Virus record (IMG/VR): IMGVR_UViG_3300043419_003049
Coordinates: 1 to 20,690 of that record
Length of the DNA: 20,690 nucleotides
Origin: a virus
Strand: one strand, 5' to 3'
The notes under the pieces were generated by a model. The model saw only the letters and a program-made list of their open reading frames with translations. It was not told where the DNA came from and made no database searches. Positions 1-16,699 of this stretch are shown one piece after another; positions within the stretch are counted from its first letter, which is position 1; every line of letters starts with the position of its first letter. Both the position numbers and the translations under genes were made by a program.

Positions 1-396
1 TCAGATCTGTGACGCGCCAGCGCACATTTGCTGGCGCCACTCCACCGGAAACGGCTCCATCAGCCCTGGCAGCGTCATCTCCTCCGGCTGCCGCCCGTCC
101 AGGATCGCCTCCACGATATCCGGCGCCAGCAGCGTCAGGCGCAGAAGGCGCGAGACATAGGACGAGTTGATCTTCTCCGCCGCCGCCAGTTCGTTGATGG
201 TGGCGAAGCGCCCGGTCTCCATCATCCGCCGCCACCGGAACGCCCGGGCCAGCGCCTTGACCAGCGTGGTGCCCGCAGCCGAGGAGCCACTGCTTGCGAT
301 GCTGCTGGCGGGCGCGATCATCAGCTTCCGCCCGCCCCGCAGCTTCCGGGCCGCCAGCGGCACCCGAACGGTCAGCATTTGCGCGGCGCCGGTCAT
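1..396 (-). CDS. Small ParB/KorB-type HTH protein coupled to the recombinase
   Basis: A 131-aa protein whose ATG overlaps the recombinase stop codon (ATGA), so the two are probably co-translated. Residues about 66-101 look like the helix-turn-helix of ParB/KorB proteins, with the pattern SSYVSRLLRLTLLAPDIVE followed by AILDG. The first 45 residues are basic and low in complexity, with no ParB nuclease domain. Role is inferred: a DNA-binding accessory to the recombinase, possibly a directionality factor, or an autoregulator of the module. No experimental homologue is recognised. The gene ends exactly at the window edge. An alternative start is the Met at residue 7. I am confident that it is a gene, less so about its job. 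Confidence 0.8.
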   Translation of the reverse strand: MTGAAQMLTVRVPLAARKLRGGRKLMIAPASSIASSGSSAAGTTLVKALARAFRWRRMMETGRFATINELAAAEKINSSYVSRLLRLTLLAPDIVEAILDGRQPEEMTLPGLMEPFPVEWRQQMCAGASQI

Positions 397-1745
397 GCAA
401 CTGCCCATGCCGACTCGGCGCTGGTCGCCGCCAGGTCCCGCGCCAGGCTCGCCAGCCCCTCCAGCTTCAGCCGCACGTCGGCGCCGCCAATGCCGATGTC
501 CACCCGGTCGACCAGCAGGCGGATGATCCGCGCCTGCTCGGCGGGGAACAGCTCCTCCCAAAGCGGGTCCAGCCGCTCCAGCGCCAGGCGAGCCTCGTCC
601 TCCGTCATGTCCGGCGCCGAGGCCCGTGCGGCGCGCCAGGCGCCCAGCACTACCTCCGGCTGACGCAGCAGCCCCCGAACCTGCGCGATGACCGCGCCCT
701 CGATCTCCGCGGCAGAGATGCGCGCGATGGCCGGCCCGTCCGCGGCGCTGCCCTTCAGCACCGACTGGCTGACGTAGTAGCGATATTGCTGGCCGCGGCG
801 CCCGCGCGCGTGGGTGGGCGACATGGCACGCCCGTCGCTGCCGAAGATCAGCCCGCGCAGCAGCGAAGGCGTCTGGCAGCGGGTGCGGTTGGCGCGTGTC
901 TTCGGGCTGATCGCCAGCAGGGCGTGCGCCGCGTCCCACATCGGCTGGGGCACGATGGCGGCATGCTCGCCCGGGTGCGACTTGCCCTTGTGCATCGCCT
1001 CGCCGAGATAGGTGCGGTTGCTCAACACGCGGTAGACGTCGCTTTTGGTGAAGGCGCGGCCGCGCTTCGTTGTGGCGCCCTCCGCCCGAAGCGCCTGGAC
1101 CAGCTTCGTGCCGGATTCCGTCTCGACGAATCCCTCGAAGATGCGTCGCACCAGCGCCGCCTCGGCGTCGTTCACCAGCAGCTTGCGGTCGCGCGCATCG
1201 TAGCCCAGCGGCACGAAGCCCCCCATCCAGATCCCGCGCGCGCGTGACGCCGCCACCTTGTCGCGGATGCGCTCGCCAATGACCTCCCGCTCGAACTGCG
1301 CAAAGCTGAGCAGGATGTTCAGCGTCAGCCGCCCCATGCTGGTCGTCGTGTTGAAGGACTGCGTCACCGACACGAAGGTCACGCTGTTGGCGTCGAACAC
1401 CTCGACCAGCTTCGCGAAGTCCATCAGCGCGCGCGACAGGCGATCGATCTTGTAGACGACCACCACGTCGATGAGGCCGCGCTCGATGTCAGCCAGCAGG
1501 CGCCTAAGCGCCGGCCGTTCCAGCGTGCCGCCGGAGACGCCGCCGTCGTCGTAGCGATCGCGGACCAGCACCCAGCCCTCGGAGCGCTGGCTGGTGATGT
1601 AGGCCTCACACGCCTCGCGCTGCGCGTCGAGCGAGTTGAACTCCATGTCGAGCCCTTCCTCGCTCGACTTCCGCGTGTACACTGCGGCACGGACCTTCCT
1701 GACCGTGGCCGGCATCGCGACGTCGGCGGCTGGCTTGCGCTTCAT
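393..1745 (-). CDS. Large serine recombinase (site-specific integrase)
   Basis: A 450-aa serine recombinase that would cut and rejoin DNA through a phosphoserine link, for integration or excision of the element. The resolvase catalytic domain spans about residues 18-165. It starts with Y23-x-R25-x-S27, where S27 is the expected nucleophile, and contains the KIDRLSR motif (99-105) with its catalytic arginines. The Recombinase DNA-binding domain follows (about 178-285). The segment that in many large serine recombinases holds a CxxC zinc ribbon (about 296-330, LLRGLIFGSDGRAMSP) has no cysteine pairs. The start overlaps the DUF2924 stop by ATGA, and the stop overlaps the next gene the same way. 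Attachment sites are not visible and may lie left of the window. Confidence 0.95.
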   Translation of the reverse strand: MKRKPAADVAMPATVRKVRAAVYTRKSSEEGLDMEFNSLDAQREACEAYITSQRSEGWVLVRDRYDDGGVSGGTLERPALRRLLADIERGLIDVVVVYKIDRLSRALMDFAKLVEVFDANSVTFVSVTQSFNTTTSMGRLTLNILLSFAQFEREVIGERIRDKVAASRARGIWMGGFVPLGYDARDRKLLVNDAEAALVRRIFEGFVETESGTKLVQALRAEGATTKRGRAFTKSDVYRVLSNRTYLGEAMHKGKSHPGEHAAIVPQPMWDAAHALLAISPKTRANRTRCQTPSLLRGLIFGSDGRAMSPTHARGRRGQQYRYYVSQSVLKGSAADGPAIARISAAEIEGAVIAQVRGLLRQPEVVLGAWRAARASAPDMTEDEARLALERLDPLWEELFPAEQARIIRLLVDRVDIGIGGADVRLKLEGLASLARDLAATSAESAWAVA

Positions 1746-2248
1746 GCCGTGCCCCTCCGGTTCTTCAGGCCAAAGAACAGCCAGCCATTCCAGCGCGTGC
1801 CGGTGATGGCGCGCGCGATGGAGGAGAGCGACTGGTAGGGGCGGCCCTGATACTCGTAGCCGTCGTGCAGCACGGTGACGCTGTGCTCGACGCCCTGGTA
1901 CTCACGGATCAGCCGCGTCCCAGCGATCGGCTTGTCGTCGCCGCGAATGCGGCGCAGCACGGGATTGCCGCCGTCCAGCTGCTCGCCCAGAGCCTCGAGG
2001 CGCTGGATCGTCTCGTGCTTCAGGCCGCCATAGGCCAATTCCTGGATGCGGTAGGCCAGGCGGCTTTCCAGGAAGCGACGGTTGTAGGGGGGCGGCTCGG
2101 CGGCGAAGAGTTCACGCCACTGCTGCTTCAGGTCGGGCGTGGCGGCGGTCTTCAGTGCCGCGAGCCGGCCGAGCACGTCGGCCGGTGGAATGGCGGGGAT
2201 GGTCGGCGCCGGCGGGGTGCCGGCTTTGGATTTGGTGGCGCGCGTCAT
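1742..2248 (-). CDS. DUF2924 family protein
   Basis: A 168-aa protein recognised as DUF2924 from its core, which includes ELFAAEPPPYNRRFLESRLA, GTRLIREYQGVEHSVTV and the C-terminal SLSSIARAITGTRWNGWLFF. Families of this kind are repeatedly found next to serine recombinases in alphaproteobacterial phages and islands (recalled from general knowledge). The biochemical role is unknown. The C-terminal block resembles a small DNA-contacting domain, with the phrase SIARAITGTRWNGW, so a recombinase accessory role is plausible. It is joined by ATGA overlaps to the upstream 67-aa gene and the downstream recombinase gene. The N-terminal 25 residues are Pro/Ala-rich and probably disordered. Confidence 0.9.
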   Translation of the reverse strand: MTRATKSKAGTPPAPTIPAIPPADVLGRLAALKTAATPDLKQQWRELFAAEPPPYNRRFLESRLAYRIQELAYGGLKHETIQRLEALGEQLDGGNPVLRRIRGDDKPIAGTRLIREYQGVEHSVTVLHDGYEYQGRPYQSLSSIARAITGTRWNGWLFFGLKNRRGTA

Positions 2249-2448
2249 GCGGGTCTCCGGTTGGTCCGGTTCGCATGCAGGCGCTGGGGGGGCGGGAAGT
2301 GTAGGCCACGCTCTCCCTGGTCAGAGGTCTCGCGCGCAGCTTCCTCGGCAGCGCGGCTCCGCAGCCGCACCAAGCCGGCGGCCAGGATGGCGCAGACTTC
2401 CCTGAGGTGGGGCGGCAGGTACTGGTTCGCCGAGGGTGGCAGGGCCAT
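2245..2448 (-). CDS. 67-aa conserved small protein, first gene of the recombinase module
   Basis: A short protein starting MALPPSANQYLPPHLREVC and continuing through a helical, Arg/Ala-rich stretch (ILAAGLVRLRSRAAEEAA) to a basic tail ending RTNRRPA. I recall similar small proteins preceding DUF2924 genes in related elements. The stop overlaps the DUF2924 start (ATGA), which supports it being real despite its length. The upstream DNA carries a bipartite promoter-like element shared with the replication operon. Function unknown; the basic tail suggests nucleic-acid or recombinase contact, but this is inference. Confidence 0.75.
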   Translation of the reverse strand: MALPPSANQYLPPHLREVCAILAAGLVRLRSRAAEEAARETSDQGERGLHFPPPQRLHANRTNRRPA

Positions 2449-2473: not shown

Positions 2474-2509
2474 CTGTTATTTACGGAATCAGGGCGGCGC
2501 CGTTCTCAC
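2474..2509 (-). promoter_or_regulatory. Bipartite promoter-like element upstream of the recombinase operon
   Basis: Read on the minus strand: GTGAGAA (2509-2503), 15 nt, then TCCGTAAATAACAG (2487-2474), then 25 nt to the ATG at 2448. The same pair of boxes, with 14 nt between them, stands before the gene at 5164 in the same orientation relative to its gene. The 14-bp box is identical in both copies. The layout resembles -35 and -10 boxes; recognition by the nearby sigma-like protein is inference. A repressor operator is the alternative. Confidence 0.6.
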
Positions 2510-2517
2510 AGCGCCGC
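2494..2517 (-). terminator. Hairpin after the regulatory operon, overlapping the next promoter-like element
   Basis: GCGGCGC (2494-2500) and GCGCCGC (2511-2517) are perfect inverted repeats with a 10-nt loop. The hairpin lies 10 bp past the stop of the 224-aa gene, in the right place for an intrinsic terminator, but no clear U tract follows. Its loop contains the GTGAGAA box of the next operon, so termination and initiation signals are superimposed. It could instead be an operator dyad. Confidence 0.5.
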
Positions 2518-2527
2518 ATTACGCTGC

Positions 2528-3202
2528 TCAATCCCTCCCCCGCTGCTTGGCCTCCGGCCTGAAGGTGACCCAGATGTCCCTGAGCCGCCGCTTCAGCGTG
2601 CTCTCGTCAGGCACTTTGTCACCCCGCTGCGCAAACCATGCCTGCATATGCCGGATCAGCGCGCCGAACGATTCCGGTACGCCCTCGAAGTAGATGAACC
2701 GGCACGCTTCCAGCCGCGCAGCGTCCCAGGCGTGCGTCGGCTGTGAGCCGCGTCTACCCGCCTTCGTGCCAAGCACTGCATCGTCATCCGCATGCTCCAT
2801 CGCAGCGTAGCGCTCGAGCTCCTCGTGCCGCAGGCCGACTTCCTCCCGGATCACCGTGTAGCCGCGATCATCTTCGCCCGTGCTGATCAGACGCCGATAT
2901 CGCCCCTGCTCGGCCGCCAGCCAAAATATCGTCTGTGATCCATGCCGCAGGACAAACCACGCGTCGTCCGCCCTGAGATCGACCAGCCCCTGGACGTATC
3001 GCTGCTCCTCGGGGTGCGCCACCGCCCTGCCGTCCATGTCGGCCTCGTACGATCCGTCCTCGACAAAGAGACGAGCCACCGCGGTGCAGAGTTGGATCTT
3101 CCGCTCGGATACCAGCACCGACATGTCGAGCAGTGACAGCCCAAGCCGGTCACACACTTCATCGATATGATAGAAGAACTTCTTCTTCGGCCTGTTCGCC
3201 AT
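2528..3202 (-). CDS. Unrecognised 224-aa protein of the immunity-type operon
   Basis: I do not recognise the family. The start MANRPKKKFFYHIDEVC is chosen because AGGGAGG lies 5 nt upstream; an ATG at 3205 and a TTG at 3217 are in frame but worse placed. The N-terminus is basic and runs into a helical segment (IDEVCDRLGLSLLDMSVLV) that could be a DNA-binding or dimerisation helix pair. The middle is acidic and mixed. The C-terminus (ESTLKRRLRDIWVTF) is basic and amphipathic. There is no signal peptide or membrane segment. It is the third gene after ImmA and XRE with an 11-bp gap to XRE, so it probably shares their control and may be a further regulator or partner. Function unknown. Confidence 0.75.
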   Translation of the reverse strand: MANRPKKKFFYHIDEVCDRLGLSLLDMSVLVSERKIQLCTAVARLFVEDGSYEADMDGRAVAHPEEQRYVQGLVDLRADDAWFVLRHGSQTIFWLAAEQGRYRRLISTGEDDRGYTVIREEVGLRHEELERYAAMEHADDDAVLGTKAGRRGSQPTHAWDAARLEACRFIYFEGVPESFGALIRHMQAWFAQRGDKVPDESTLKRRLRDIWVTFRPEAKQRGRD

Positions 3203-3213
3203 CATGGCCTCCC

Positions 3214-3495
3214 TCAACCCGACCGCATGCTTCGCAAGCGCCGATACGCCAACACGACGCGCCCCATGTCCTTGCGCATGTCGGGCGGCAGGCGCTCCGC
3301 CTCGACAAACAGCTCATCGAGGGGAATGCCGAGAATGGCCGCGGCGCGCTGAACCACCTCGTCGCTCGGCGGCTTGTCGAGATTGCGCTCGATCCGCGAC
3401 CAGTAGCCGGGGGAGATCCCCATCCGCTCGGCGAGATCGTTGAGCCCGATCGCCAGCTCCGTGCGCCGCGCGCGCACCACATCACCGAAGGCCAT
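3214..3495 (-). CDS. XRE-family HTH transcriptional regulator
   Basis: A 93-aa single-domain repressor-like protein. The Cro/C1-type helix-turn-helix occupies residues about 6-60: RRTELAIGLNDLAERMGIS, then the recognition helix PGYWSRIERNLDKPP, then the helix VVQRAAAILGIPLDELF. The ATG at 3495 overlaps the stop of the ImmA-like gene (TGATG); an in-frame GTG at 3498 would give a 4-bp overlap and one more residue. XRE proteins next to ImmA/IrrE peptidases commonly repress excision or lytic genes until cleaved (established for ICEBs1 ImmR/ImmA). Here the inferred targets are the GCACCC boxes at 4315-4458. Confidence 0.93.
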   Translation of the reverse strand: MAFGDVVRARRTELAIGLNDLAERMGISPGYWSRIERNLDKPPSDEVVQRAAAILGIPLDELFVEAERLPPDMRKDMGRVVLAYRRLRSMRSG

Positions 3496-4223
3496 CACAG
3501 ACCCCCTTCGACCAAGCCGTAGCGCGACAGGCGCACAGCGATGAACCGCTCGGACACGCCGAAATCACCCGCCAACGCCGCCAGCACACCGCCGAGCGCT
3601 TCGTGCGGATTTCCTGCCGCAACGATCGGACTGGCCGGCCTGCCCTCGTGCGGTCCGCGGCAGAGCCGCAACCCTTCGCCGCGCGCATAGGCAAGCAGGC
3701 GCGTGTGCAGTGGCACCGGTGGTGCCAGGAGGGCGCCCATGAATTCATTGGCGCGCGCCTCGGCGCCACGACCCTGGCGCTCAAGGGCCCCTGGCGAGCT
3801 CGCGACGGCGCGGTAGCGCCGCTCCCCCCTCCCCAGCGCTGCTGGCACGTCGAACAGCAAATGCCCAAGCTCATGCGCGGCCGTGCTCAGCGCGAGATCG
3901 GGGTGGTTGGTCGTCATCGGACCATTCACCGCGATATAGGCCCAGCCCGGCTCGTGCGGATCGATGTCGCACAGACCGAGCACGCTCTGGCCGGATTCAT
4001 CGCAGAGCGCACGGCCGACATCCCACGAGACCCCCAGGCGCTGCCCGTTCACCTCCACCACGCGGCAGGCGTCGATCAGTGTCGGAAGGGCCATCGCGAG
4101 GCTGTCGCCCTCACGGGGTATCTGGCGGCGGACCTGCGCGGCGACGGCGCGAATGGCGGCGACAGCCACCTCTCGGCGCGGGCTCAGAGCCGTAGCAGTG
4201 GGGTAGGCGATGGCGATCGTCAT
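3495..4223 (-). CDS. ImmA/IrrE family zinc metallopeptidase
   Basis: A 242-aa protein with the zincin motif HELGH (117-121) and a likely third zinc ligand E160 in the segment ARANEFMGALLAP. These match ImmA/IrrE peptidases, which cleave a cognate XRE repressor after DNA damage or other signals. The start at 4223 is preceded by AGGG about 10 nt upstream; longer upstream extensions read through the intergenic region and look non-coding. It is first in the operon, with its stop overlapping the XRE start, the reverse of the repressor-then-peptidase order known for ICEBs1. The XRE protein at 3214-3495 is the obvious substrate, by inference. Confidence 0.92.
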   Translation of the reverse strand: MTIAIAYPTATALSPRREVAVAAIRAVAAQVRRQIPREGDSLAMALPTLIDACRVVEVNGQRLGVSWDVGRALCDESGQSVLGLCDIDPHEPGWAYIAVNGPMTTNHPDLALSTAAHELGHLLFDVPAALGRGERRYRAVASSPGALERQGRGAEARANEFMGALLAPPVPLHTRLLAYARGEGLRLCRGPHEGRPASPIVAAGNPHEALGGVLAALAGDFGVSERFIAVRLSRYGLVEGGL

Positions 4224-4314
4224 AGGAACATGGTCCCTGCATTGGAGATAAACGGGAAACATTAAGTTCCTTGTATGTTCTCTCCGACGTATGAGTCCAG
4301 CACTCTCCGCGCCA

Positions 4315-4347
4315 GGGGGTGCGGTGGTCGCGCAATTCCGCACCCCC
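4315..4347. promoter_or_regulatory. 10-bp perfect inverted repeat (candidate operator)
   Basis: GGGGGTGCGG (4315-4324) and CCGCACCCCC (4338-4347) are perfect inverted repeats with a 13-bp spacer, so half-site centres are 23 bp apart, about two helical turns. This geometry suits a dimeric XRE-type repressor. It lies about 90 bp upstream of the ImmA-like start. Confidence 0.55.
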
Positions 4348-4392
4348 GGTCTCTAGGCCCCTGACGATCTTCATAACCCATTGAATATGTGA

Positions 4393-4411
4393 GGGTGCGC
4401 TGATCGCACCC
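4393..4411. promoter_or_regulatory. 7-bp perfect dyad (candidate operator)
   Basis: GGGTGCG (4393-4399), CTGAT, CGCACCC (4405-4411). It uses the same half-site as the dyad at 4315-4347 but with a 5-bp spacer. It is followed at once by the second 15-bp direct repeat and lies about 100 bp upstream of the sigma-like gene. Confidence 0.5.
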
Positions 4412-4513
4412 GAGCAATTCCGCACCCCTGCGCACCCCCTGGCCCTAGCCGCACCCCCGGCGAGGCCGCTGTTCTCGGTTCATCGCAGCCGACTGAGCTG
4501 AAGGGATCGAGGG

Positions 4514-5098
4514 ATGAGAGAGAAACACGCCGCACAGGGAGATATTCCCGATAACTGGGACCCGTATCAGACCCGCGTCGCGCTGGCCGCGGCCCGTCAC
4601 CATGCCGCGCGCTTCACGCGGCACCGCCGCCTGGCAGCGGCGGACCGGGAGGATCTGGCCCAGGACATCCTCCTGATGATCCTAGAGGCGGGCCCGCGCT
4701 TTGATGCCTCGCGCGCCTCCTGGGCAACCTTTGTCGCCATGCTGGCCCGCCGGGCCATCTGCGATCGGGCCCGGCAGCCGGCAGCGCCGGAATGCGTCTC
4801 GCTCGACAGCAGTGCCGCGGCGGCGATCCTCGATCGTCTCGTCGCGCCGCAGGCGGATCCGGACATCGCCCTCGCGTTTCGACGCATCGAGGCAGAGTTG
4901 CCGACCGCACCGCGGGCGATGCTGCAACAGATCATCGCGCACCGTGACGTCGTGGCAGCGCGCGACGCCGGCGGGACCTCCCCCGCCACCTTCTATCGCG
5001 ACCTGCATGACCTGCGCTGCTGGCTTCGCGCCCTGGGCGTGCACCCCACGACATCGGTGTCGATGCGCGCGGCGACGCCGACGCCATCGGCGCCGTGA
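4514..5098 (+). CDS. Sigma-70-like RNA polymerase sigma factor
   Basis: A 194-aa protein resembling small sigma factors. Region 2 covers about residues 18-90: DREDLAQDILLMILEAG, then FDASRASWATFVAMLARR and AICDRARQ, the familiar pattern of core binding and -10 recognition helices. A region-4-like HTH lies at about 119-172, with IALAFRRIEAELP and TSPATFYRDLHDLRCWL. The linker is short, as in ECF-type factors. The start follows AAGGGATCGAGGG. The gene stands alone, divergent from the immunity-type operon across the GCACCC boxes. Its stop lies inside the GTGAGAA box of the promoter-like element before the next operon. It may direct polymerase to that element and its twin at 2474-2509 (inference). 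The match is by pattern, so a sigma-like HTH activator remains possible. Confidence 0.75.
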   Translation: MREKHAAQGDIPDNWDPYQTRVALAAARHHAARFTRHRRLAAADREDLAQDILLMILEAGPRFDASRASWATFVAMLARRAICDRARQPAAPECVSLDSSAAAAILDRLVAPQADPDIALAFRRIEAELPTAPRAMLQQIIAHRDVVAARDAGGTSPATFYRDLHDLRCWLRALGVHPTTSVSMRAATPTPSAP

Positions 5099-5129
5099 GA
5101 ATGATTTCTCGCAGATCCGTAAATAACAG
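5095..5129 (+). promoter_or_regulatory. Bipartite promoter-like element upstream of the replication operon
   Basis: GTGAGAA (5095-5101), 14 nt, then TCCGTAAATAACAG (5116-5129), then 34 nt to the ATG at 5164. It matches the element at 2474-2509 in both boxes and in orientation relative to the genes. The first box overlaps the stop of the sigma-like gene, and a small dyad GAGAA/TTCTC (5097-5101 and 5106-5110) sits within it. Confidence 0.6.
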
Positions 5130-5163: not shown

Positions 5164-5547
5164 ATGCGCATAACGTCCGTCGACTATCTGCTGAACGAAC
5201 CCATGCGGGCCATCGAAAATCTGCTCGATGTTGTGCGCACGGAGAACGGCCTGTGTGATCGCCTCGCCGATGCCGCGCCAGGTGACACCATCGTCTACCA
5301 CGTCGGTCTGCTGGCCCGCGATCGCGACAAGATCGTCACCACGCTCTTTCCAGACCGCCGCGACGAACTCGAGATCGTCGCACGGCGCGCATGGCAGATG
5401 GCGGAGGCGGGCCTCGTGCACTTGCTCCAGCGCCGCGTCGCTGATGAGTGCTTCGCCTATCTGGTGATTGTGCGCCCCCGGCCGCGCCACGCCCGCGGCG
5501 CTCTGGCCATGGCCGTCCCGGGCCTTCTCCAGCGCGAGGCTGCGTGA
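5164..5547 (+). CDS. Unrecognised 127-aa protein, first gene of the replication operon
   Basis: The start is chosen because GAAGGGAGCC lies about 9 nt upstream of ATG 5164. The sequence has a compact core, PGDTIVYHVGLLARDRD, then a helical part (IVARRAWQMAEAGLVHLLQRR) and a strand-like end (ECFAYLVIVRPRPR), a make-up that could be a small winged-helix fold. I cannot name a family. The stop overlaps the next start (TGATG). As first gene behind the shared promoter-like element it may act early; DNA binding is only a guess. Confidence 0.75.
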   Translation: MRITSVDYLLNEPMRAIENLLDVVRTENGLCDRLADAAPGDTIVYHVGLLARDRDKIVTTLFPDRRDELEIVARRAWQMAEAGLVHLLQRRVADECFAYLVIVRPRPRHARGALAMAVPGLLQREAA

Positions 5548-6089
5548 TGGACGCGCACCGCACCAACCGCCCCACCCTCGACGCGCTGCGGCACATGCCG
5601 GTGAGCGACGTCATCTCGCTTCCCGCCGAGCAGCTGGCGCTGCTGCAGACCGATGCGCGCGAGGCGCTGGACGCCGCCAAACGCATGCAGGACTGGATCG
5701 AGGCCGCGATCGCGCTTCGCTACGAGCAGCGTGCCATCGGCGCCCGTGTCGCGGCCGGCAAGGACACCGGCACGGTCCGCTTCCAGGACGGCACCGTCGA
5801 GATCGCGGTCGATCTGCCGAAGAAGGTGGAGTGGGACCAGGCGCGGCTCGCCGCACTGTCCGAGCAGATCCGCGCTGGCGGCGAGGATCCCGGCCAGTAC
5901 GTCGAGGTCAGCTTCAAGGTCTCGGAGCGGGCCTACACCGCCTGGCCGGAGCGCATCCGCCAGGCCTTCGAGCCGGCACGCACGGTGCGGACCGGCCGCG
6001 CCACCTATCGCCTCGCCATCATGTCCGAGACGACGCTGCGCGACAGCCCGCAAGCCGTTGGCGTAATCCCGCTGCGGGGAGGCCGCTGA
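5547..6089 (+). CDS. Conserved phage-type protein of unknown function, 180 aa
   Basis: Starts by TGATG overlap with the upstream gene and ends by TGATG overlap with the Sak4-type ATPase gene. The N-terminal half is helical (LPAEQLALLQTDAREALDAA and following). The second half is mixed, with VRFQDGTVEIAVDLPKKVEW and ISVSE-like strand segments ending ARTVRTGRATYRL. I recall similar proteins next to Sak4-like ATPases in alphaproteobacterial phages but cannot give a function. Its tight coupling suggests it works with the recombination ATPase. Confidence 0.8.
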   Translation: MDAHRTNRPTLDALRHMPVSDVISLPAEQLALLQTDAREALDAAKRMQDWIEAAIALRYEQRAIGARVAAGKDTGTVRFQDGTVEIAVDLPKKVEWDQARLAALSEQIRAGGEDPGQYVEVSFKVSERAYTAWPERIRQAFEPARTVRTGRATYRLAIMSETTLRDSPQAVGVIPLRGGR

Positions 6090-6955
6090 TGGCGCTGCGC
6101 ATCATCACGGCCGATGAGCGGCAGGCCGAGGAGCGCGGCGTCAAGGCCGCCATCCTCGGCAAGCCGGGTATGGGCAAGACCTGGCTGCTCAACACCGCCT
6201 GCCCAGTGACCACGCTCTTCATGGATCTGGAGGCAGGCGACCTCGCCGTGAAGGACTGGCCCGGCGCCTCGATCCGCCCACGCACCTGGGAGGACTGCCG
6301 CGACCTGGCGCTGTTCCTCGCCGGCCCGAACCCCGCGCTGCGCGACGACCAGCCCTATTCCGCGGCCCAGCATGCGCGAGTGGTTCGGGAATACGGCGAT
6401 CCGGCGCGCATGGACCACTACGTCACGCTGTTCATCGACAGCATCACCGTGGCGGGGCGGCTCTGCTTCCAGTGGTGCCGCGGCCAGCCCGAGGCGTTCG
6501 CCGAGCGCACCGGCAAGCCTGACGTGCGCGGCGCCTACGGCCTGCATGGGCGCGAGATGATCGCATGGCTCACGCATCTGCAGCACGCCCGCGGCCGCAA
6601 CGTGATCTTCGTCGGGATCCTCGACGAGAAGCTCGACGACTTCAATCGCCGCGTCTTCAGCCTGCAGATCGAGGGCAGCAAAACTAGCCTCGAACTGCCC
6701 GGCATCGTCGATGAAGTGCTGACGCTGGCGGAGATCAAGGACCAGGGCGGCCAGCCGTTCCGGGCGCTGGTCTGCCAGACGCTGAACCCCTGGGGCTACC
6801 CGGCGAAGGACCGCAGCGGCCGGCTCGACCTGCTGGAGCCACCGGACCTCAGCCGCCTTTTCGCGAAGATTCGCGGCGCAGCAGCACCCACCGCAGCGCC
6901 ATCCGCGCTGCCCGCACCGCTGATCACCGCCACCACCGACACCCCCGCCACCTGA
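6089..6955 (+). CDS. Sak4-type RecA-like ATPase (AAA_24), probable recombinase
   Basis: A 288-aa P-loop ATPase. The Walker A motif GKPGMGKT is at residues 24-31 and the Walker B-like TLFIDSIT at 113-120 (D117). MDLEAGD (45-51) matches the conserved acidic turn after strand 2 in this family. The short RecA core with no extra domains, placed before a probable ssDNA-binding protein, fits phage Sak4/AAA_24 proteins, which promote single-strand annealing or strand exchange with an SSB partner. The C-terminal 25 residues are Ala/Pro/Thr-rich and probably disordered. A packaging or other AAA role is less likely in this context. Confidence 0.85.
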   Translation: MALRIITADERQAEERGVKAAILGKPGMGKTWLLNTACPVTTLFMDLEAGDLAVKDWPGASIRPRTWEDCRDLALFLAGPNPALRDDQPYSAAQHARVVREYGDPARMDHYVTLFIDSITVAGRLCFQWCRGQPEAFAERTGKPDVRGAYGLHGREMIAWLTHLQHARGRNVIFVGILDEKLDDFNRRVFSLQIEGSKTSLELPGIVDEVLTLAEIKDQGGQPFRALVCQTLNPWGYPAKDRSGRLDLLEPPDLSRLFAKIRGAAAPTAAPSALPAPLITATTDTPAT

Positions 6956-6971: not shown

Positions 6972-7640
6972 ATGGCTTCCTGGAACGACTACAACGACGC
7001 CCAGTCGAACCCGAACCTGATCCCCAAGGGGACGACGGCGAAGGTCCGCCTCACCATCCGCCCCGGCGGCTTCGATGACCCGAGCCAGGGCTGGACCGGC
7101 GGCTACGCCACGCGCGGCAGCACCGGCGCCGTCTATCTGAATGGCGAGTTCACCGTGCTGGAGGGGCCCTACGCCAAGCGGAAGATCTTCACGCTGATCG
7201 GGCTCTACAGCCCGAAGGGGCCGGAGTGGGCGGGGATGGGCCGCAGCTTCCTGCGCGGGATGCTGAACTCCGCCCGCGGTATCTCCGACAAGGATGTCTC
7301 GCCCCAGGCGCAGGCGGCGCGCCGCATCGGCGGCTTCGCGGATCTCGATGGCCTCGAGTTCGTCGCGAAGATCGAGCACGGCACGGATGCTGGCGGTGAG
7401 ACCAAGAACGAAATCCGCATGGCGGTGACGCCGGACCATCGCGATTACGCGCAGGCGATGGGACGGATCGCTGCGCCGGCCGGATACGCACCGCCGGCCT
7501 ATGCCCCGCCGGCACAGGGCTACGCCCCGCCCGCGCACACGGCGCCGCCCGCCGCGCCTGCCATCCAACAGGGCGCCTTCCCGGCCTCGACGCAGCAGCC
7601 CGCGGCCGGTGCGGATCCGCGTCCCACCTGGGCGCGCTGA
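6972..7640 (+). CDS. Probable phage single-stranded DNA-binding protein
   Basis: A 222-aa protein with a strong GGAGGAGAA ribosome binding site. Residues 1-160 look like a beta-rich domain (TTAKVRLTIRPGGF, VYLNGEFTVLEGPY, RKIFTLIGLYSPKG, LEFVAKIEHG), comparable with DUF669-like phage SSB substitutes. The tail from 165 is Pro/Ala-rich, with three YAPPA units at 172, 177 and 184. It lacks the acidic C-terminal tip of bacterial SSB, ending PRPTWAR. Position directly after the Sak4-type ATPase supports an SSB role. The assignment is by fold pattern and context rather than a signature motif. Confidence 0.65.
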   Translation: MASWNDYNDAQSNPNLIPKGTTAKVRLTIRPGGFDDPSQGWTGGYATRGSTGAVYLNGEFTVLEGPYAKRKIFTLIGLYSPKGPEWAGMGRSFLRGMLNSARGISDKDVSPQAQAARRIGGFADLDGLEFVAKIEHGTDAGGETKNEIRMAVTPDHRDYAQAMGRIAAPAGYAPPAYAPPAQGYAPPAHTAPPAAPAIQQGAFPASTQQPAAGADPRPTWAR

Positions 7641-7657
7641 GGGAGGGTCGCACGGGC

Positions 7658-9334
7658 ATGATGCTCCGCCCCCGCCAGAAGCTCTTCGTCGAGCGCAGCC
7701 TGCGTGCGCTCGACCAGCACGGCAACACGCTCGGCGTCGCCCCGACCGGCGCCGGCAAGACGATAATGCTGTCGGCGGCGGTGGGGGAGCATATCGGCAG
7801 CAGCGCCGCCAAGGCGGCGGTCCTGGCGCATCGGGATGAGCTGACGGCGCAGAACCTGACAAAGTTCCGGCGCGTGAACCCGGGCATCTCCACATCGGTG
7901 GTAGATGCCGGCCAGAAGTCCTGGGGCGGCCAGGTCACCTTCGCCATGGTACCGACCCTGACCCGGCAGGCGAATCTCGAGGCGATGCCGGCGCTCGACC
8001 TGCTGGTGATCGACGAGGCGCACCACGCCGTCGCCGACAGCTATCGCCGCATCATCGATCGGGCGCTGCAGCGCAATCCTGACTGCCGCATCTATGGCGT
8101 CACCGCCACGCCGAACCGCGGCGACAAGATCGGGCTGCGCCAGGTCTTCTCCAACGTCGCCGACCAGATCCGGCTCGGCGAGCTGATCGCCTCCGGCCAC
8201 CTGGTGCCGCCCCGCACCTTCATCATCGACGTCGGTGTGCAGGACGAGCTGCGCGCGGTCCGGCGCAGCGGCGATGACTTCGACATGGGCGAGGTCGCTC
8301 GCGTCATGGACACGGTGCCGGTCACCGATGCCGTGGTGAAGCACTGGCAGGAGAAGGCCGACGGCCGCCAGACCGTGGCCTTCTGCTCGACCATCGCCCA
8401 TGCCGAGCATGTCGCCGCAGCCTTCAACGCCGCCGGCGTCCCCGCCGTCATGGTCACCGGCGACATGCCGGACAACGAACGACGCTCCGTCCTGGCCGCC
8501 TATGCCAGGGGCGAGGCGCGCATCGTCGTCAATGTCGCGGTGCTGACCGAAGGCTGGGACCACCCGCCTACCTCCTGCGTCGTGCTTCTGCGGCCCAGTT
8601 CCTTCAAATGCACCATGATCCAGATGGTCGGGCGCGGACTGCGCACCGTCGATCCGGTCGAGCATCCCGGCATCGTCAAGCGCGACTGCATCGTGCTCGA
8701 CTTCGGCACCTCGTCGCAGATCCATGGCTGCCTAGAACAGGATGTCGATCTCGACAGCCATCCCGGCGAGGGCGAGCCGCCCACCAAGACCTGCCCCTCC
8801 TGCGAGGCCGAAGTGCCGATCGCAGTGATGGAGTGCCCCATCTGCGGGCACGCCTTCGAACCCCGTGGGCGCGAGACGGCGTCGCTCACCGACTTCATCA
8901 TGACGGAGATCGATCTCCTTCGGCGCTCGGCCTTCCAGTGGTGCGACCTGTTCGGCGACGACGCCGCGCTGCTGGCCAATGGCTTCAACGGCTGGGCGGG
9001 CATCTTCTTCCTGAACGGGGCCTGGCACGCGGTCGGCGGGGCGAAGGAGGAGCGGCCGCGCCTGCTATCCATCGGGGAGCGGCTGGTGGCGCTGGCTGCA
9101 GCGGACGACTGGCTGAACACCTACGAGACGGACGAGAGCGCCCATAAGAGCCGGCGCTGGCTCCGCGAGCCGCCGACCGAGCGCCAGCTGATCCATCTGC
9201 CACCGGCGGCACGGGCCGATCTCGGCATGACGCGCTACCAGGCCTCGGCGCTGCTGACCTTCAAGTTCAACCGCCAGGCCATCCAGCACCTCGTGCGCAG
9301 CGCTCAGCCCGCAGCGCTGGGGGAGGCCGCATGA
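7658..9334 (+). CDS. SF2 DEAH-type helicase with C-terminal zinc finger
   Basis: A 558-aa superfamily 2 helicase. Motifs in order: Walker A APTGAGKT (28-35), DEAH (119-122) in LLVIDEAHHA, VTATP (148-152), and motif VI QMVGRGLRT (322-330). A four-cysteine zinc knuckle follows (C379, C382, C393, C396; CPSC and CPIC pairs). The C-terminal 150 residues are specific to this protein and of unknown fold. It resembles phage RecG/RadD-like ATP-dependent helicases used in replication or recombination. Two adjacent ATGs (7658, 7661) follow GAGGGAGGG. It would load or remodel DNA with the neighbouring ATPase and nuclease (inference). Confidence 0.93.
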   Translation: MMLRPRQKLFVERSLRALDQHGNTLGVAPTGAGKTIMLSAAVGEHIGSSAAKAAVLAHRDELTAQNLTKFRRVNPGISTSVVDAGQKSWGGQVTFAMVPTLTRQANLEAMPALDLLVIDEAHHAVADSYRRIIDRALQRNPDCRIYGVTATPNRGDKIGLRQVFSNVADQIRLGELIASGHLVPPRTFIIDVGVQDELRAVRRSGDDFDMGEVARVMDTVPVTDAVVKHWQEKADGRQTVAFCSTIAHAEHVAAAFNAAGVPAVMVTGDMPDNERRSVLAAYARGEARIVVNVAVLTEGWDHPPTSCVVLLRPSSFKCTMIQMVGRGLRTVDPVEHPGIVKRDCIVLDFGTSSQIHGCLEQDVDLDSHPGEGEPPTKTCPSCEAEVPIAVMECPICGHAFEPRGRETASLTDFIMTEIDLLRRSAFQWCDLFGDDAALLANGFNGWAGIFFLNGAWHAVGGAKEERPRLLSIGERLVALAAADDWLNTYETDESAHKSRRWLREPPTERQLIHLPPAARADLGMTRYQASALLTFKFNRQAIQHLVRSAQPAALGEAA

Positions 9335-9709: not shown

Positions 9710-10476
9710 TGCTCGACTTCAACAGCCGCAGCCAGACCTCGGCACATGTGAATGCCGCCATCGACGCGGCGCTGGTCGCCACCAATCAGGCGGCGCCGCC
9801 ACGCAGCTACCTGGGCGGGTCGCGCCTCGGCCATGCCTGCGAGCGGGCGCTGCAATTCGAGTTCGTGAAGGCTCCGAAGGACGAAGGCGCCGACTTCGAC
9901 GGACGGCTACTGCGGATCTTCGGGATTGGCCACGCGCTGGAGGACGTCGCTGTCGCCTGGCTCCGCCGTGCTGGCTTCGATCTCTACACCCGTCGTGGCG
10001 GTGGCGAGCATGGCGAGCAGTTCGGCTTCTCGGTCGCCGGTGGTCGTATCCGCGGCCATGTGGATGGCGTCATCGCCAGCGGCCCGACCATCCCTGGCAT
10101 GGCGTTCCCGGCGCTGTGGGAATGCAAGACCATGAACGCCAAGGCCTGGCGCGAGACAGCCAGCAAGGGCGTGGCGGCCAGCAAGCCGATCTATGCGGCG
10201 CAGATCGCGGTCTACCAGGCCTACATGGACGCCAGTGTCCCGGGCGTGGCGGACAATCCGGCGCTGTTCACCGCCATCAACAAGGACACGGCGGAGCTGC
10301 ACCACGAGCTGGTGCCGTTCAACGCCGAGCTGGCGCAGCGCATGTCGGACCGGGCCGTTCGGATCCTGGCCGCGACGGATGCCGGTGAGTTGCTGCCCCG
10401 CGTTGCCGCCCAGGCCGAGCATTTCGAGTGCCGCTTCTGCCCCTGGGCAAAGCGCTGCTGGGCGCTGCCGCGATGA
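9709..10476 (+). CDS. Cas4-like PD-(D/E)XK nuclease with probable Fe-S cluster
   Basis: A 255-aa nuclease of the RecB/Cas4 group. Visible motifs: H75 in FGIGHALED, D119 in GHVDGVI, E138-x-K140 in LWECKTM, and Q165/Y169 in AAQIAVYQAY, the usual order of the PD-(D/E)XK active site. C44 (GHACERALQ) plus C241-x2-C244-x5-C250 match the four-cysteine iron-sulphur pattern of Cas4 and AddB-type nucleases. There is no CRISPR array or other cas gene nearby. In this operon it would resect ends to feed the Sak4-type ATPase (inference). The stop overlaps the primase-helicase start (ATGA). Confidence 0.88.
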   Translation: MLDFNSRSQTSAHVNAAIDAALVATNQAAPPRSYLGGSRLGHACERALQFEFVKAPKDEGADFDGRLLRIFGIGHALEDVAVAWLRRAGFDLYTRRGGGEHGEQFGFSVAGGRIRGHVDGVIASGPTIPGMAFPALWECKTMNAKAWRETASKGVAASKPIYAAQIAVYQAYMDASVPGVADNPALFTAINKDTAELHHELVPFNAELAQRMSDRAVRILAATDAGELLPRVAAQAEHFECRFCPWAKRCWALPR

Positions 10477-12845
10477 GCCTCTGGACGGACTTCAACGATG
10501 CGACGCCGCTGCCGGATGATGGCGTGAGCGACCTTCCCGTCGCTGGGCAGTCGATGCCGGCGGCGCCGCGGCCCATCGCGCCGGACATCGAGCAGATCGC
10601 CACCTTCCTCGAGGTGGTGTTCGGCTATTGCGACGGGCTGATCCCCGTCCGCGGCTTCGTCGACCAGGGCCAGGGGCTCGACACCAAGCCGCACAACATT
10701 TGGGTCCCGGCCGACCGGCACGCCGCCGCATCCCTCAGCGCTTATGCCACCTGGGCCGCGCGCGAAGGCAGCGCGGTCTATGTCATCCCCGGCACCGTCG
10801 CCGAGCAGGGCCAGGCGCGCGCCGAGCATGTGCTGCAGATGCAGACGTTGGTGGTCGATCTCGACGCCGGCGATATCGCCGCCAAGCTGGCGCATCTGGT
10901 CCACCACCTGGGCGCGCCCACCCTCCTGGTCGAAAGCGGCGGCCGCACCGCCGAGGGCGTCGCCAAGCTGCACGCCTGGTGGCGGCTGACGGAGCCGGCA
11001 GAGGGCGAGGATCTGGCGCGGGTCTGCGCGCTGCGCGGGGAGATCGCCGAGAAGGTCGGTGGCGATCTGCACTTCCGATCTGCCCACCAGCCCATTCGCG
11101 TGCCCGGCACTGTCCACCAGAAGCATGGCGTCCAGCGCCGCGTCACCATCCGGGAGCACCACCCCCGGGTCGAGGTCGAGCTACCCGACTTCGCCGCGGC
11201 GGTCGCGGCCATGCCCACCATGCCCGGCCTGGGGGCGCCCATAGCCACCCCTGGCGCCACCCGCCCCGGCCTCGATGCCATCCTGACCACGCCGGTGCGG
11301 GAGGGCGCCCAGGACGCCTGGACGCGCTTCCAGGGCGCCAGCGCGGCCATCGGCCACTTCGTCCGCATGGTCCACGAGGGCCGCCTGACTGGCGACGAGG
11401 GCTGGCAGGCCATCTGCCAGTACAACGCCGCCTGCCTGCGCCCGGAATGGCCGCTGGACCGCCTCAAGGTCGAGGCGGACAGCATCTGGGCGTTGCATGT
11501 CGACCGCAACGGGCCGCCCCTGCTGCGGGCCACGGCTGCGCCGCCCAGCGCCATCGCCGCGCACACACTGGGCGCGCTGCTCGACGACACCTCACCGATG
11601 CCGGACGATCTGATCGGGCCGCGCCTGCTAACCCCGGGCGGGATGCTGGTGCTCGGCGGCGCGCCGAAGGTTGGCAAATCCGACTTCCTGATCAGCCTGC
11701 TGGTGCACGCCGCGGCCGGCGCGCCGTTTCTGCGCTTCACAGCTCGACGCCCGCTGCGCGTGTTCTATCTCCAGGCCGAGATCCAGTACCACTACCTGCG
11801 GGAGCGGCTGCAGCAGCTGCGGCTCGATCCCGCGATCGTGGCCCGCGCCCGCGACACCCTCATTGTCACCCCGAAGCTGCGCATGCTGCTCGACGAGCAG
11901 GGCCTCCCACTGGTGGCCGCGGCCGTCCACACCGCTTTCCCCGATGCGCCACCGGACATCATCTGCATCGATCCCATCCGCAACCTCTTCGACGGCGGGC
12001 CCGCAGGCGGAGGGGAGAATGACAACGCGGCGATGATGTTCTTCCTGCAGGGGCGGGTCGAAGCACTGCGGGACCAAGTCGCCCCTGAGGCGGGCATCAT
12101 CCTCGCCCACCATACGAAGAAGCTCAGCAAGCAGCAGGTGAAGGACGATCCCTTCCTGTCGCTCTCCGGCGCCAGCGCGCTGCGCGGCTACTACACATCC
12201 GGCGCCATCCTGTTCCGCCCTGATGAGGAGCGGACCGAACGCGAGCTGCATGTCGAGCTGCGCAACGGGCCCGGCCTCGAGCCGATGCTGGTCGACAAGC
12301 GCGGCGGCGCCTGGGTCGAGATCGACCGCCGCGGCGAGCGCCTGGTCAGGCAGGACATCGGGCGCAAGCTCGATGCCGAAAGGCTGCGCAAGCAGGATGT
12401 GATCCTCGGCATCCTGCTCGATGAGGCAGCTGAAGGCCGACTCTATTCCACCATGCAGCTGGCGGAGAAATTTGAGAACAAAGTCGGGCTCGGCAGCAAG
12501 CACACGATCCGCGAGCGGTTGAGCGTGCTCGCCACAAAGGGCTTCGTGAAGTTCCGCCGTGACGGCACCGAATTCGGCCTCGGGGTCGTGCGGTCGCGCT
12601 TCGGGTACCTCTGCGTGGAGGGCATGACCTTCGGCCCAGAGGTGGAGACCGTGGATCCGCAGACTGGCGAGGTGACCACCAGCACCCGCCGCGTCCTGCC
12701 CAGCCACTTCAAATGCCCCCAGTCCGGCAACTGCCTGGACGTCGAAAATCCGGAGGTGTGGGTCTACCCGGAAGGCGTCCTGGACGACCTAACTCCTGAG
12801 GAGTTAGGCCTAACTCCTCACTCCTCCCAGAAAACAACGTCATGA
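10473..12845 (+). CDS. Primase-helicase fusion replication protein
   Basis: A 790-aa protein with two functional parts. Residues about 40-240 resemble an archaeo-eukaryotic-type primase of the RepB/phage class: VVDLDAGD (127-134) carries the acidic pair, and SGGRTAEGVAKLHAWWRL (155-172) follows. A PriCT-like helical linker (about 290-345) comes next. Residues about 375-620 are a RepA/AAA_25 RecA-fold ATPase with Walker A GAPKVGKS (396-403), Walker B DIICIDP (495-501) and ILAHHTKK (543-550). A winged-helix-like region lies at about 650-705. It is likely the replication initiator/primase-helicase. Its last codons overlap the 10-bp repeat array, so a candidate origin lies at its 3' end. The start overlaps the nuclease stop (ATGA). 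Confidence 0.85.
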   Translation: MSLWTDFNDATPLPDDGVSDLPVAGQSMPAAPRPIAPDIEQIATFLEVVFGYCDGLIPVRGFVDQGQGLDTKPHNIWVPADRHAAASLSAYATWAAREGSAVYVIPGTVAEQGQARAEHVLQMQTLVVDLDAGDIAAKLAHLVHHLGAPTLLVESGGRTAEGVAKLHAWWRLTEPAEGEDLARVCALRGEIAEKVGGDLHFRSAHQPIRVPGTVHQKHGVQRRVTIREHHPRVEVELPDFAAAVAAMPTMPGLGAPIATPGATRPGLDAILTTPVREGAQDAWTRFQGASAAIGHFVRMVHEGRLTGDEGWQAICQYNAACLRPEWPLDRLKVEADSIWALHVDRNGPPLLRATAAPPSAIAAHTLGALLDDTSPMPDDLIGPRLLTPGGMLVLGGAPKVGKSDFLISLLVHAAAGAPFLRFTARRPLRVFYLQAEIQYHYLRERLQQLRLDPAIVARARDTLIVTPKLRMLLDEQGLPLVAAAVHTAFPDAPPDIICIDPIRNLFDGGPAGGGENDNAAMMFFLQGRVEALRDQVAPEAGIILAHHTKKLSKQQVKDDPFLSLSGASALRGYYTSGAILFRPDEERTERELHVELRNGPGLEPMLVDKRGGAWVEIDRRGERLVRQDIGRKLDAERLRKQDVILGILLDEAAEGRLYSTMQLAEKFENKVGLGSKHTIRERLSVLATKGFVKFRRDGTEFGLGVVRSRFGYLCVEGMTFGPEVETVDPQTGEVTTSTRRVLPSHFKCPQSGNCLDVENPEVWVYPEGVLDDLTPEELGLTPHSSQKTTS

Positions 12846-14473: not shown

Positions 14474-14550
14474 TGCGCGGCGGCGTCACTCAGAGCCTGT
14501 CTCTGAAGTATGCCGGAACGTAGCAGAAGGGCGAGGCGGGAAGCGCACGA

Positions 14551-14567
14551 AACGACCGACAGTCGTT
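14551..14567 (+). terminator. Hairpin after the DUF6456-like gene
   Basis: AACGAC (14551-14556), CGACA, GTCGTT (14562-14567), 78 bp past the stop of the DUF6456-like gene, in the convergent gap before CheB. The stem is short and followed by mixed sequence, so terminator function is tentative. Confidence 0.35.
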
Positions 14568-14592
14568 CGACCTCGGCCGCCAACGGGAATTT

Positions 14593-14611
14593 AAGGCCGG
14601 CGCGCGGCCTT
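14593..14611 (-). terminator. Intrinsic terminator of the cheB-like gene
   Basis: Perfect 7-bp stem AAGGCCG (14593-14599) and CGGCCTT (14605-14611), loop GCGCG. On the minus strand it starts at the CheB stop codon and continues into TTAAATTCC, a weak U tract. Being in the convergent gap, it could also stop rightward transcription. Confidence 0.65.
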
Positions 14612-15216
14612 CATGACGTGCGCCGCCATTTGTTGTCGCCGGTCAACACGGCTTCGATGGTGGCGGCGATCTCCAGGCCCGTGCCGATAAAGCTGATGGC
14701 GCCGTCAAAGTCGATGGCATTCTGCTGCATGCCACGCGGCTTGCGTTTCGGGTCGAGCACCATGGTGAGTCCCCCCGCTGCATGAATAGCCGCCAGGCCG
14801 CGAGAGCCATCGTCCAGCGAACCAGACAGGATGATGCCGATGGCTCGGCGCTCAGCATGGCGCGCCAGCGATTTGAAAAGGGTATCAATCGTTCGGTTAC
14901 GCAGCCGATGGTTTTCGCCGTGCACCAGGCCTGCCGTGTTGCCCGCCATCAGCGTCAGGTGGCCGGCGGGCTCGCCGATGTAGCAGACGCCCACCTCGAA
15001 CTTCTCGGCCTCGGTAGCGACCACGACCGGCATGTTGGCGCTTCTGGCCAGAACTTCGCGCAGCGCGCTGACCTTATCGCTTGGCCGATGCAGGACCACC
15101 ATGACAACGGCCGGGGTCGCATGCGGCAAGGCCGCCAGCAGATTCCTGATATCATCCAATCCCTCCCCGCCGGAGGCCCCGATCGCAACGAAACAGAGCG
15201 GGGTTCTGATGGGCAT
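14611..15216 (-). CDS. Stand-alone CheB-type methylesterase domain
   Basis: A 201-aa protein matching the catalytic domain of CheB, which removes methyl groups from (or deamidates) chemoreceptors. The triad is visible: S15 in AIGASGGEG, H43 in VVLHRPSD and D136 in LSGSLDDGSRGL. RNRTIDTLFKSLA (106-118) is also typical. There is no receiver domain, so it would not be controlled by CheA-type phosphorylation in the usual way. The start at 15216 fits the domain, but no clear ribosome binding site is seen and an in-frame ATG at 15324 exists. It runs against the phage genes and ends in its own terminator, as expected of cargo. Stand-alone CheB domains also occur in stress signalling clusters. Confidence 0.88.
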   Translation of the reverse strand: MPIRTPLCFVAIGASGGEGLDDIRNLLAALPHATPAVVMVVLHRPSDKVSALREVLARSANMPVVVATEAEKFEVGVCYIGEPAGHLTLMAGNTAGLVHGENHRLRNRTIDTLFKSLARHAERRAIGIILSGSLDDGSRGLAAIHAAGGLTMVLDPKRKPRGMQQNAIDFDGAISFIGTGLEIAATIEAVLTGDNKWRRTS

Positions 15217-15274
15217 CGATGGATAGATACCATCACGGTCGGGGACCTGATGGCAGAAAGGCAAGCTGCGTGCT

Positions 15275-15547
15275 TCACAACGCGGTAAGCACGCTACCCA
15301 CGCGTGCAGACGTTTCGTCGTCATTCAGAGACAGGCTGTCAGAGGCCAGGATGTACGCCACGGCCTCGGCGATCCTCGTGAACGGCAAGGCGGGATGGTG
15401 CGCCAGGATAGCCTCGCGCACCGCCCTGCTGTCCGCATCGCCCCGCTGCGGGAGAGCTCCGGGCCGGCGTCGAGCGGCCCGCGCAGCAGCCAGCGCGGCA
15501 GCGCTCAGCCAAAGCGGCGGGGGTCGTGGCGGGGCGCCGTCGGGCAT
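15275..15547 (-). CDS. Possible small hypothetical protein upstream of cheB
   Basis: A 90-aa frame with start ATG 15547. The first 40 residues are Ala/Pro/Arg-rich. The last 50 look like folded protein: DSRAVREAILAHHPALPF, then RIAEAVAYILASDSLSL and an acidic SLNDDETSARVG. Codons in that part mostly end in G or C, as in the neighbouring genes. It lies 58 bp upstream of CheB on the same strand and may form an operon with it. No family is recognised and no good ribosome binding site is seen, so this is only moderately supported. Confidence 0.45.
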   Translation of the reverse strand: MPDGAPPRPPPLWLSAAALAAARAARRRPGALPQRGDADSRAVREAILAHHPALPFTRIAEAVAYILASDSLSLNDDETSARVGSVLTAL

Positions 15548-16582: not shown

Positions 16583-16699
16583 GGCGGAAGCGCGCGACAT
16601 TCCTAGCGCCAGGCTCTTTTTCCAGGTTGCCACGGTACCCCGTTGCCAGCCCCATCAGGCGGCACCTTTCACCACCACCATCGATCCCAGCAGGTGCGC

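Follow-up and report, generated by a model that had tools for sequence, protein, structure and literature searches.

Temperate phage switches are usually described as a repressor set against Cro or an antirepressor. In the ImmA/ImmR switch of ICEBs1 and related elements, an XRE repressor and an M78 (ImmA-like) peptidase control excision and replication, and T4 gp55 and SPO1 gp28 are phage sigma factors that redirect host RNA polymerase. The same redirection is described for the sporulation-type sigma factors of Bacillota phages (PMC9429907). Phage factors of these kinds drive middle or late genes or act on host sporulation. The closest precedent for the locus considered here is SigN (ZpdN) of Bacillus subtilis pBS32, the sigma factor of a prophage-like element, which is SOS-switched through LexA and whose regulon scarcely extends beyond the element and contains many DNA replication genes (PMC6751061). 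Our subject is a sigma-like gene (4514-5098) and two promoter-like boxes in the complete virus record IMGVR_UViG_3300043419_003049 (20,690 bases; G000), the whole of which we call the window.

From left to right, the window carries a leftward integration operon, a leftward immunity operon, the rightward sigma-like gene and a rightward replication block that begins at 5164. Matching boxes face outward before the integration operon (INT box) and before the replication operon (REP box). The comparative evidence strongly supports a reading in which the product of 4514-5098, a predicted sigma factor of the extracytoplasmic function (ECF) type, recognizes both; very probably the boxes are its cognate promoters, and an SOS/ImmA/XRE switch that makes the sigma factor would thereby fire both operons.

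A prophage sigma factor that serves its own element is of a kind already known from SigN, and the absence of exact core sites outside prophages in eight host genomes likewise points to an element-limited regulon. SigN differs in being directly repressed by LexA and self-activating, whereas here no box precedes the sigma gene and the LexA box of the window lies before immA; its regulon is also larger, compared with two sites here, and no integrase promoter has been described for it. Unlike ICEBs1, the switch would have a sigma factor as its output, and the relatives of the window are tailed prophages with terminase and portal genes rather than conjugative elements. In contrast to the T4, SPO1 and sporulation-type factors, the one predicted here is of the ECF type, resides in a lysogeny cassette and has two adjacent promoters. 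Within the literature searched, we found no precedent for an ECF-type sigma factor in a lysogeny cassette, bracketed by its only two predicted promoters and exchanged together with them between phages.

Matching boxes on either side of a sigma-like gene

The sequence TCCGTAAATAACAG occurs at 2474-2487 on the minus strand and at 5116-5129 on the plus strand, preceded in each case by GTGAGAA at a distance of 15 and 14 nt, respectively. The first-pass annotation had located these bipartite copies exactly (2509-2474, minus; 5095-5129, plus) and had considered them unlikely to arise by chance, and the counts do exclude chance: allowing up to three mismatches, the window contains three matches where 0.18 are expected, and none of 100 shuffles reaches three. 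Its exact 14-bp match is present in both copies but is not the conserved unit, as the AATAACAG tail varies among relatives and characterizes the close ones; the core conserved across relatives is GTGAGAA-N14/15-TCCGTA. The boxes are asymmetric, bipartite, directional and non-palindromic, and the INT box typically lies 33 nt from the start codon of orf67 homologues. The TGA within the right-hand GTGAGAA doubles as the stop codon of the sigma gene, as it does in many members, and this overlap is gone in several relatives that still have the box. The overall layout, GAGAA-N16-19-GTA, resembles that of ECF promoters, which read GGAAC-N16/17-CGTT and similar.

Relatives were collected in two ways: a scan for the bipartite pattern across 2.9 million viral contigs returned nine stretches, and sigma homologues turned up in viral contigs and in Acetobacteraceae genomes (e.g. 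Roseomonas, Neoroseomonas, Roseococcus and Siccirubricoccus). One pattern match (L005), on a contig without a homologue of the cassette genes, was taken as chance. Where the sigma factor is 53-79% identical to that of the window, every locus with both ends in hand has the box at the same two homologous places, and the core GTGAGAA...CCGTA is absent at zero mismatches from the rest of these loci. Across eight whole host genomes (~45 Mb), GTGAGAA-N14/15-TCCGTA matches exactly 20 times: ten related prophages have a single outward pair each, there is no exact core outside prophages, and a reversed-pattern control gave no match. A weight matrix applied to two prophage regions, each ~50 kb long, did not reveal a third site. 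When the search was extended to 397 genomes of the family, sigma homologues were recovered down to ~28% identity, and both boxes are kept in 25 of 26 non-redundant elements over this range. The first-pass annotation had proposed looking for the boxes upstream of homologous genes in related elements, where they are indeed present in 25 of 26 non-redundant subfamilies; the design that it had thought unusual is instead widespread among these prophages.

That 4514-5098 is sigma-70-like, as first annotated, is borne out by a Sigma70_r2 match above cut-off (E 1e-7), and the D-RED-L-QD motif of region 2 is conserved in the family. A profile of the family matches ECF sigma chains in the PDB, among them R. 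sphaeroides RpoE (5e-9), and aligns to Streptomyces ShbA (9isn_F) over residues 23-170, i.e. through region 4; a relative, L079, matches TIGR02937 end to end. The AlphaFold model (mean predicted local distance difference test score, pLDDT, 81; predicted template modelling score, pTM, 0.45) is all-helical and in two parts, with helices at 146-173, and Foldseek ranks ECF sigma factors from initiation complexes as its best matches. As in ECF (group 4) factors of ~200 residues, the region 4 helix-turn-helix (HTH) of this 194-residue protein is joined directly to region 2, with no region 3. Judged by profile and model, then, the protein is an ECF-type sigma factor with regions 2 and 4. It has no match in INPHARED or PLSDB. 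Among the neighbouring genes, no family match to an anti-sigma factor was found, although one could be missed, since no function is assigned to two of them (g2528 and the 5164 gene); a cognate anti-sigma factor next door is not universal among ECF factors.

Co-variation with the sigma factor and competing explanations

Where the sigma factor diverges, both copies of the box change together. GTGAGAA...ACGTAATTAC is found at both sites of L079, GGGAAG...CGGTAGATGAGG at both sites of L092, GGGAAAA...ACGTA at both sites of L093 and CCCCGACA...GTAGGTG at both sites of L098 and L099, and in a distant class both -35 copies shift to CGACA. When the right box of each element is matched with its own left box, the score reaches 368, as against 339 ± 4.5 for permuted partners, a value attained in none of 20,000 permutations. 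Boxes resemble one another to the degree that the sigma factors do (rho 0.75; partial rho 0.75 with integrase controlled for, Mantel p 0.0005), and integrase identity has hardly any bearing (rho 0.11). Indeed, L084 and L098 have an integrase ~96% identical to that of the window, a sigma factor 30-40% identical, and different boxes; it is with the sigma cassette, then, that the boxes move. The -10 box tracks sigma region 2 (partial 0.53, compared with 0.11 for region 4) and the -35 box tracks region 4 slightly above region 2 (0.42 versus 0.32), figures that are supportive only since element pairs are not independent. This co-variation with the sigma factor rather than the integrase, together with the persistence of the boxes in elements without XRE and ImmA, supports the first-pass proposal that an element-encoded sigma factor may read both the integration and the replication promoters.

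Several observations weigh against this proposal. L080, the exception among the 26 non-redundant elements, retains the left box but has no recognizable REP box, and its downstream operon seems to have been replaced; L054 and L055, of the same subfamily, likewise show no REP box. The Foldseek E values for the sigma model are modest (~1e-3) because its two domains are placed differently, and in the window protein Pfam sees region 2 only, not region 4. As no box lies upstream of the sigma gene itself, there would be no positive feedback. Conservation of the -35 element of the INT box might in part reflect a hairpin that includes it in the window and L019, although L018 has none. Finally, among the 19 elements with XRE and ImmA, xre and immA similarity predicts the boxes as well as sigma similarity does (rho 0.78 and 0.82, versus 0.71), because the cassette is inherited as a block.

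This last correlation would also be expected if the boxes were operators at which XRE, or another DNA-binding protein of the cassette, shuts both operons directly while the sigma factor acts elsewhere, and partial correlation alone could not separate sigma from XRE. The question was settled by elements that have no homologue of xre, immA or g2528 (L096-L101), which keep sigma and a matching pair of boxes, in changed form (CCCCGACA-N17-GTAGG); the boxes are therefore taken not to be XRE operators. Their asymmetric, directional architecture is also not that of a palindromic operator, and distinct palindromic operator-like repeats precede the sigma gene, so that we regard control of both operons by direct repression at the boxes as very unlikely. 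ECF-like spacing and letters could, on general grounds, suit an ECF sigma factor of the host, with the 4514-5098 protein not being the reader; yet such a factor would have to act on sites that occur nowhere outside prophages in the ~45 Mb of host sequence and that shift in step with the prophage sigma factor even where two prophages share a genome (G002, G004), and we consider it very unlikely.

The two -35 elements might instead be maintained for unrelated reasons, the left because it forms the loop of an RNA hairpin at the end of the immA-xre operon, the right because it contains the sigma stop codon; the -10-like box would then be the sole shared function. Such a hairpin, perfect or nearly so, with a GAGA loop and possibly acting as a terminator that overlaps the promoter, does form at 2480-2520 at the 3' end of this operon in the window and in L019 (z -2.35 and -3.19), and the frequent use of the TGA as a stop fits as well. 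However, GTGAGAA is kept in L018 without the hairpin, several members keep GAGAA or GGGAA though the sigma frame reads through, and both copies change jointly to CGACA in the distant class; we consider this explanation highly improbable. The inverted 14-bp copies enclose the immunity region of an element that has a serine recombinase, and they could thus have been recombination sites around an invertible segment. Only the short cores match, the boxes follow sigma and not the recombinase, and the orientation of the segment never differs between loci; inversion was dropped on account of this constant orientation, and we give it almost no weight.

The immunity cassette and a proposed switch

In the window, an XRE repressor and an M78 peptidase with HExxH are encoded in one operon, as in ImmA/ImmR-type pairs, and the HE-x-GH and RANEFMGALL motifs of the peptidase are kept in relatives. 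The intergenic region between immA and sigma holds two palindromic operator-like repeats (O1 and O2; Table 1) whose motif is unlike the boxes and which change between elements with diverged XRE. Most likely, XRE would thus act on the sigma gene's own promoter, not on the boxes. A second cassette type (type II, L096-L101) lacks the xre, immA and g2528 homologues; in L098, read throughout, they are replaced by two unrelated genes on the other strand (404 and 365 residues). Such genes, without Pfam or NCBIfam match, lie upstream of sigma at 3555-5823 in L098, and also in L016 (3652-5794) and L127. They are a possible new repressor or sensor pair.

Nearly all type-I elements with this region in hand have GTTC-N7-GTTC, which in Caulobacter is the LexA consensus (PMC9578287, PMC4211646), ~40 nt before immA (4266-4280 in the window), and most of these loci contain no other such site. 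Type-II cassettes have a LexA-type box between the INT box and the operon ending in sigma. A stricter form of the motif, GTTCNNNNTATGTTC, has four occurrences in host genome G003, of which one falls within the prophage and another precedes a homologue of imuA, a classical SOS gene. The LexA box thus probably links the switch to the SOS response, and the XRE/ImmA control suggested by the first-pass annotation is best retained in amended form, with the switch probably listening to host LexA as well. L026 and its duplicate L039 have no LexA box at this place and also have an early stop in sigma. The sigma genes of L015 and L026 contain an in-frame TAG at codon 15, with no intact LexA box, and those of L006 and L030 apparently miss their N-terminal part; these copies are possibly decayed or misassembled.

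Building on what can be read from the sequence, namely the identity of the sigma factor, the pairing of the boxes, their co-variation with sigma, the lack of host sites and the presence of LexA and operator sites, we infer a switch in which the boxes would drive transcription, XRE would repress sigma and itself be cleaved by ImmA, LexA would exert control, and recombination would go in the direction of excision. In the lysogen, XRE bound to the inverted repeats within 4315-4427 would keep sigma off. DNA damage would take host LexA off 4266-4280, the ImmA-like peptidase would rise and inactivate XRE, and sigma would then be made. In an ECF-like layout, sigma region 4 would recognize GTGAGAA as the -35 element and region 2 would recognize TCCGTA as the -10 element. 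RNA polymerase carrying sigma would start leftwards at the INT box, into orf67, the DUF2924 gene and the serine integrase gene, and rightwards at the REP box, into the 5164 gene, Sak4, the helicase and the rest, such that a single sigma factor would couple excision with replication.

Table 1. Coordinates of the boxes, sites and genes in the window, with the basis of each assignment.
Feature	Position	Strand	Basis
INT box, left outward promoter (predicted)	2474..2509	-	-35 GTGAGAA 2509-2503, spacer 15, -10 TCCGTA(AATAACAG) 2487-2474
REP box, right outward promoter (predicted)	5095..5129	+	-35 GTGAGAA 5095-5101, spacer 14, -10 TCCGTA(AATAACAG) 5116-5129
ECF-type sigma factor (predicted), 194 residues, regions 2 and 4	4514..5098	+	Pfam, profile, AlphaFold/Foldseek
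ImmA-like M78 peptidase, HELGH motif	3495..4223	-	Peptidase_M78 E 0.0023, under Pfam cut-off
XRE/Cro-type HTH repressor	3214..3498	-	HTH_31 E 1.6e-10, HTH_3 E 2.2e-9; phage repressor PHROGs
Third gene of immA-xre operon (g2528), phrog_13283, function unknown	2528..3217	-	PHROG match
GTTC-N7-GTTC, alphaproteobacterial LexA (SOS) box (predicted), 40 nt upstream of immA	4266..4280	+	Consensus in PMC9578287, PMC4211646
Operator-like inverted repeat O1, GGGGGTGCGG...CCGCACCCCC	4315..4347	n/a	Sequence repeat
Operator-like inverted repeat O2, GGGTGCG...CCGCACCC, then further GCACCCC half sites	4393..4427	n/a	Sequence repeat
orf67, first gene of integration operon	2245..2448	-	Kept in all relatives; no family match (Pfam, PHROGs)
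DUF2924 protein, integration operon	1742..2248	-	Pfam E 1.2e-50
Large serine recombinase (integrase)	393..1745	-	Resolvase E 8e-39, Recombinase E 2e-15, phrog_95 E 5e-102
First gene of replication operon, function unknown	5164..5547	+	Position
phrog_2480 protein, second gene of replication operon	5547..6089	+	PHROG match
Sak4-like AAA_24 ATPase	6089..6955	+	Pfam AAA_24 E 3e-40, phrog_124 E 3e-40
Two more replication-operon genes; second (7658-9334) a DEAD/ResIII helicase	6972..9334	+	Family match
AAA_25 ATPase/primase-helicase-like protein, same rightward block	10473..12845	+	AAA_25 E 1.5e-18

Further to the right, a leftward gene at 14489-15342, CheB methylesterase-like by eye, lies within 33-nt imperfect inverted repeats (14489-14521 and 15310-15342, 79%) and looks like an inserted cargo gene.

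From AcaML1-like prophages to Wolbachia phage WO

Acidithiobacillus phage AcaML1 (JX507079) shares with the window the serine recombinase and DUF2924 genes on the left and Sak4 on the right, and its terminase and portal are common to relatives of the window. It differs in having another immunity module between these flanks, with no sigma gene annotated and no core box found. In two host genomes with the cassette, homologues of the AcaML1 terminase (44-46%) and portal (~32%) lie downstream, and for this reason we regard the relatives as tailed prophages; neither gene was identified in the window itself, a 20.7-kb record. The adjacent proteins at 16643-18157 and 18147-19373 of the window begin alike (71-80% DNA identity in two stretches), and the product of the second is a ParB_N and N6_N4_Mtase fusion; AcaML1 likewise has two adjacent DNA methylases.

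Sak4 synteny, the only route by which this homologue was reached, led to Wolbachia phage WO, in which a small sigma-70 gene lies directly before Sak4 (KX522565.1 56080-56571, L132; also L134-L138). Each of the six WO records examined has a matching outward pair of boxes around this gene, with sequences that differ between variants: GGACGAATT...CCGTGTATATAT in WOVitA1, GCGGACGAATT...ATCGTACATATATATT in WOVitA4 and wMel WO (MN180251, L135), AATTTTT...CTTGTATATATAT in WOVitA2 and sr1WOdamA, and TCCTGAATATATA in WOSOC. Compared with dinucleotide shuffles, the pairing exceeds all 200 in five of the six records and 199 of 200 in the sixth. Phage WO thus resembles the window in the position of its small sigma-70 gene and in the outward pair, and differs in the box sequences and in its leftward operon, which holds tail or other genes and not an integrase. 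Across the relatives, factor and promoters change in step, and phage WO is apparently no exception. Pairings at L129 and L130, distant sigma matches with no phage neighbours, were not judged meaningful; L131 gave only a ribosome-site-like match, and L128, which seemed paired when scored one way (a level reached by 2 of 200 shuffles) but not under a stricter score, was not counted.

Here, the switch seems to deliver a sigma factor that has two promoters dedicated to it. On balance, we lean towards the view that a broad alphaproteobacterial family of temperate phages, from Acetobacteraceae prophages to phage WO, carries exchangeable lysogeny cassettes with an ECF-type sigma factor as output and two outward promoters of its own, that sigma-promoter specificity, besides repressor-operator specificity, would mark heteroimmune groups, and that the extra small sigma factors of Wolbachia would target the flanking WO operons. 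According to a 2020 review, it has yet to be determined what the Wolbachia sigma factors target, the extra small ones among them (PMC7397232); if true, our view makes a testable prediction for phage WO, whose sigma targets would be the operons on either side. The dozens of diverged and apparently self-consistent sigma-promoter sets offer a natural collection from which ECF promoter recognition could be learned, and are a possible source of orthogonal expression parts.

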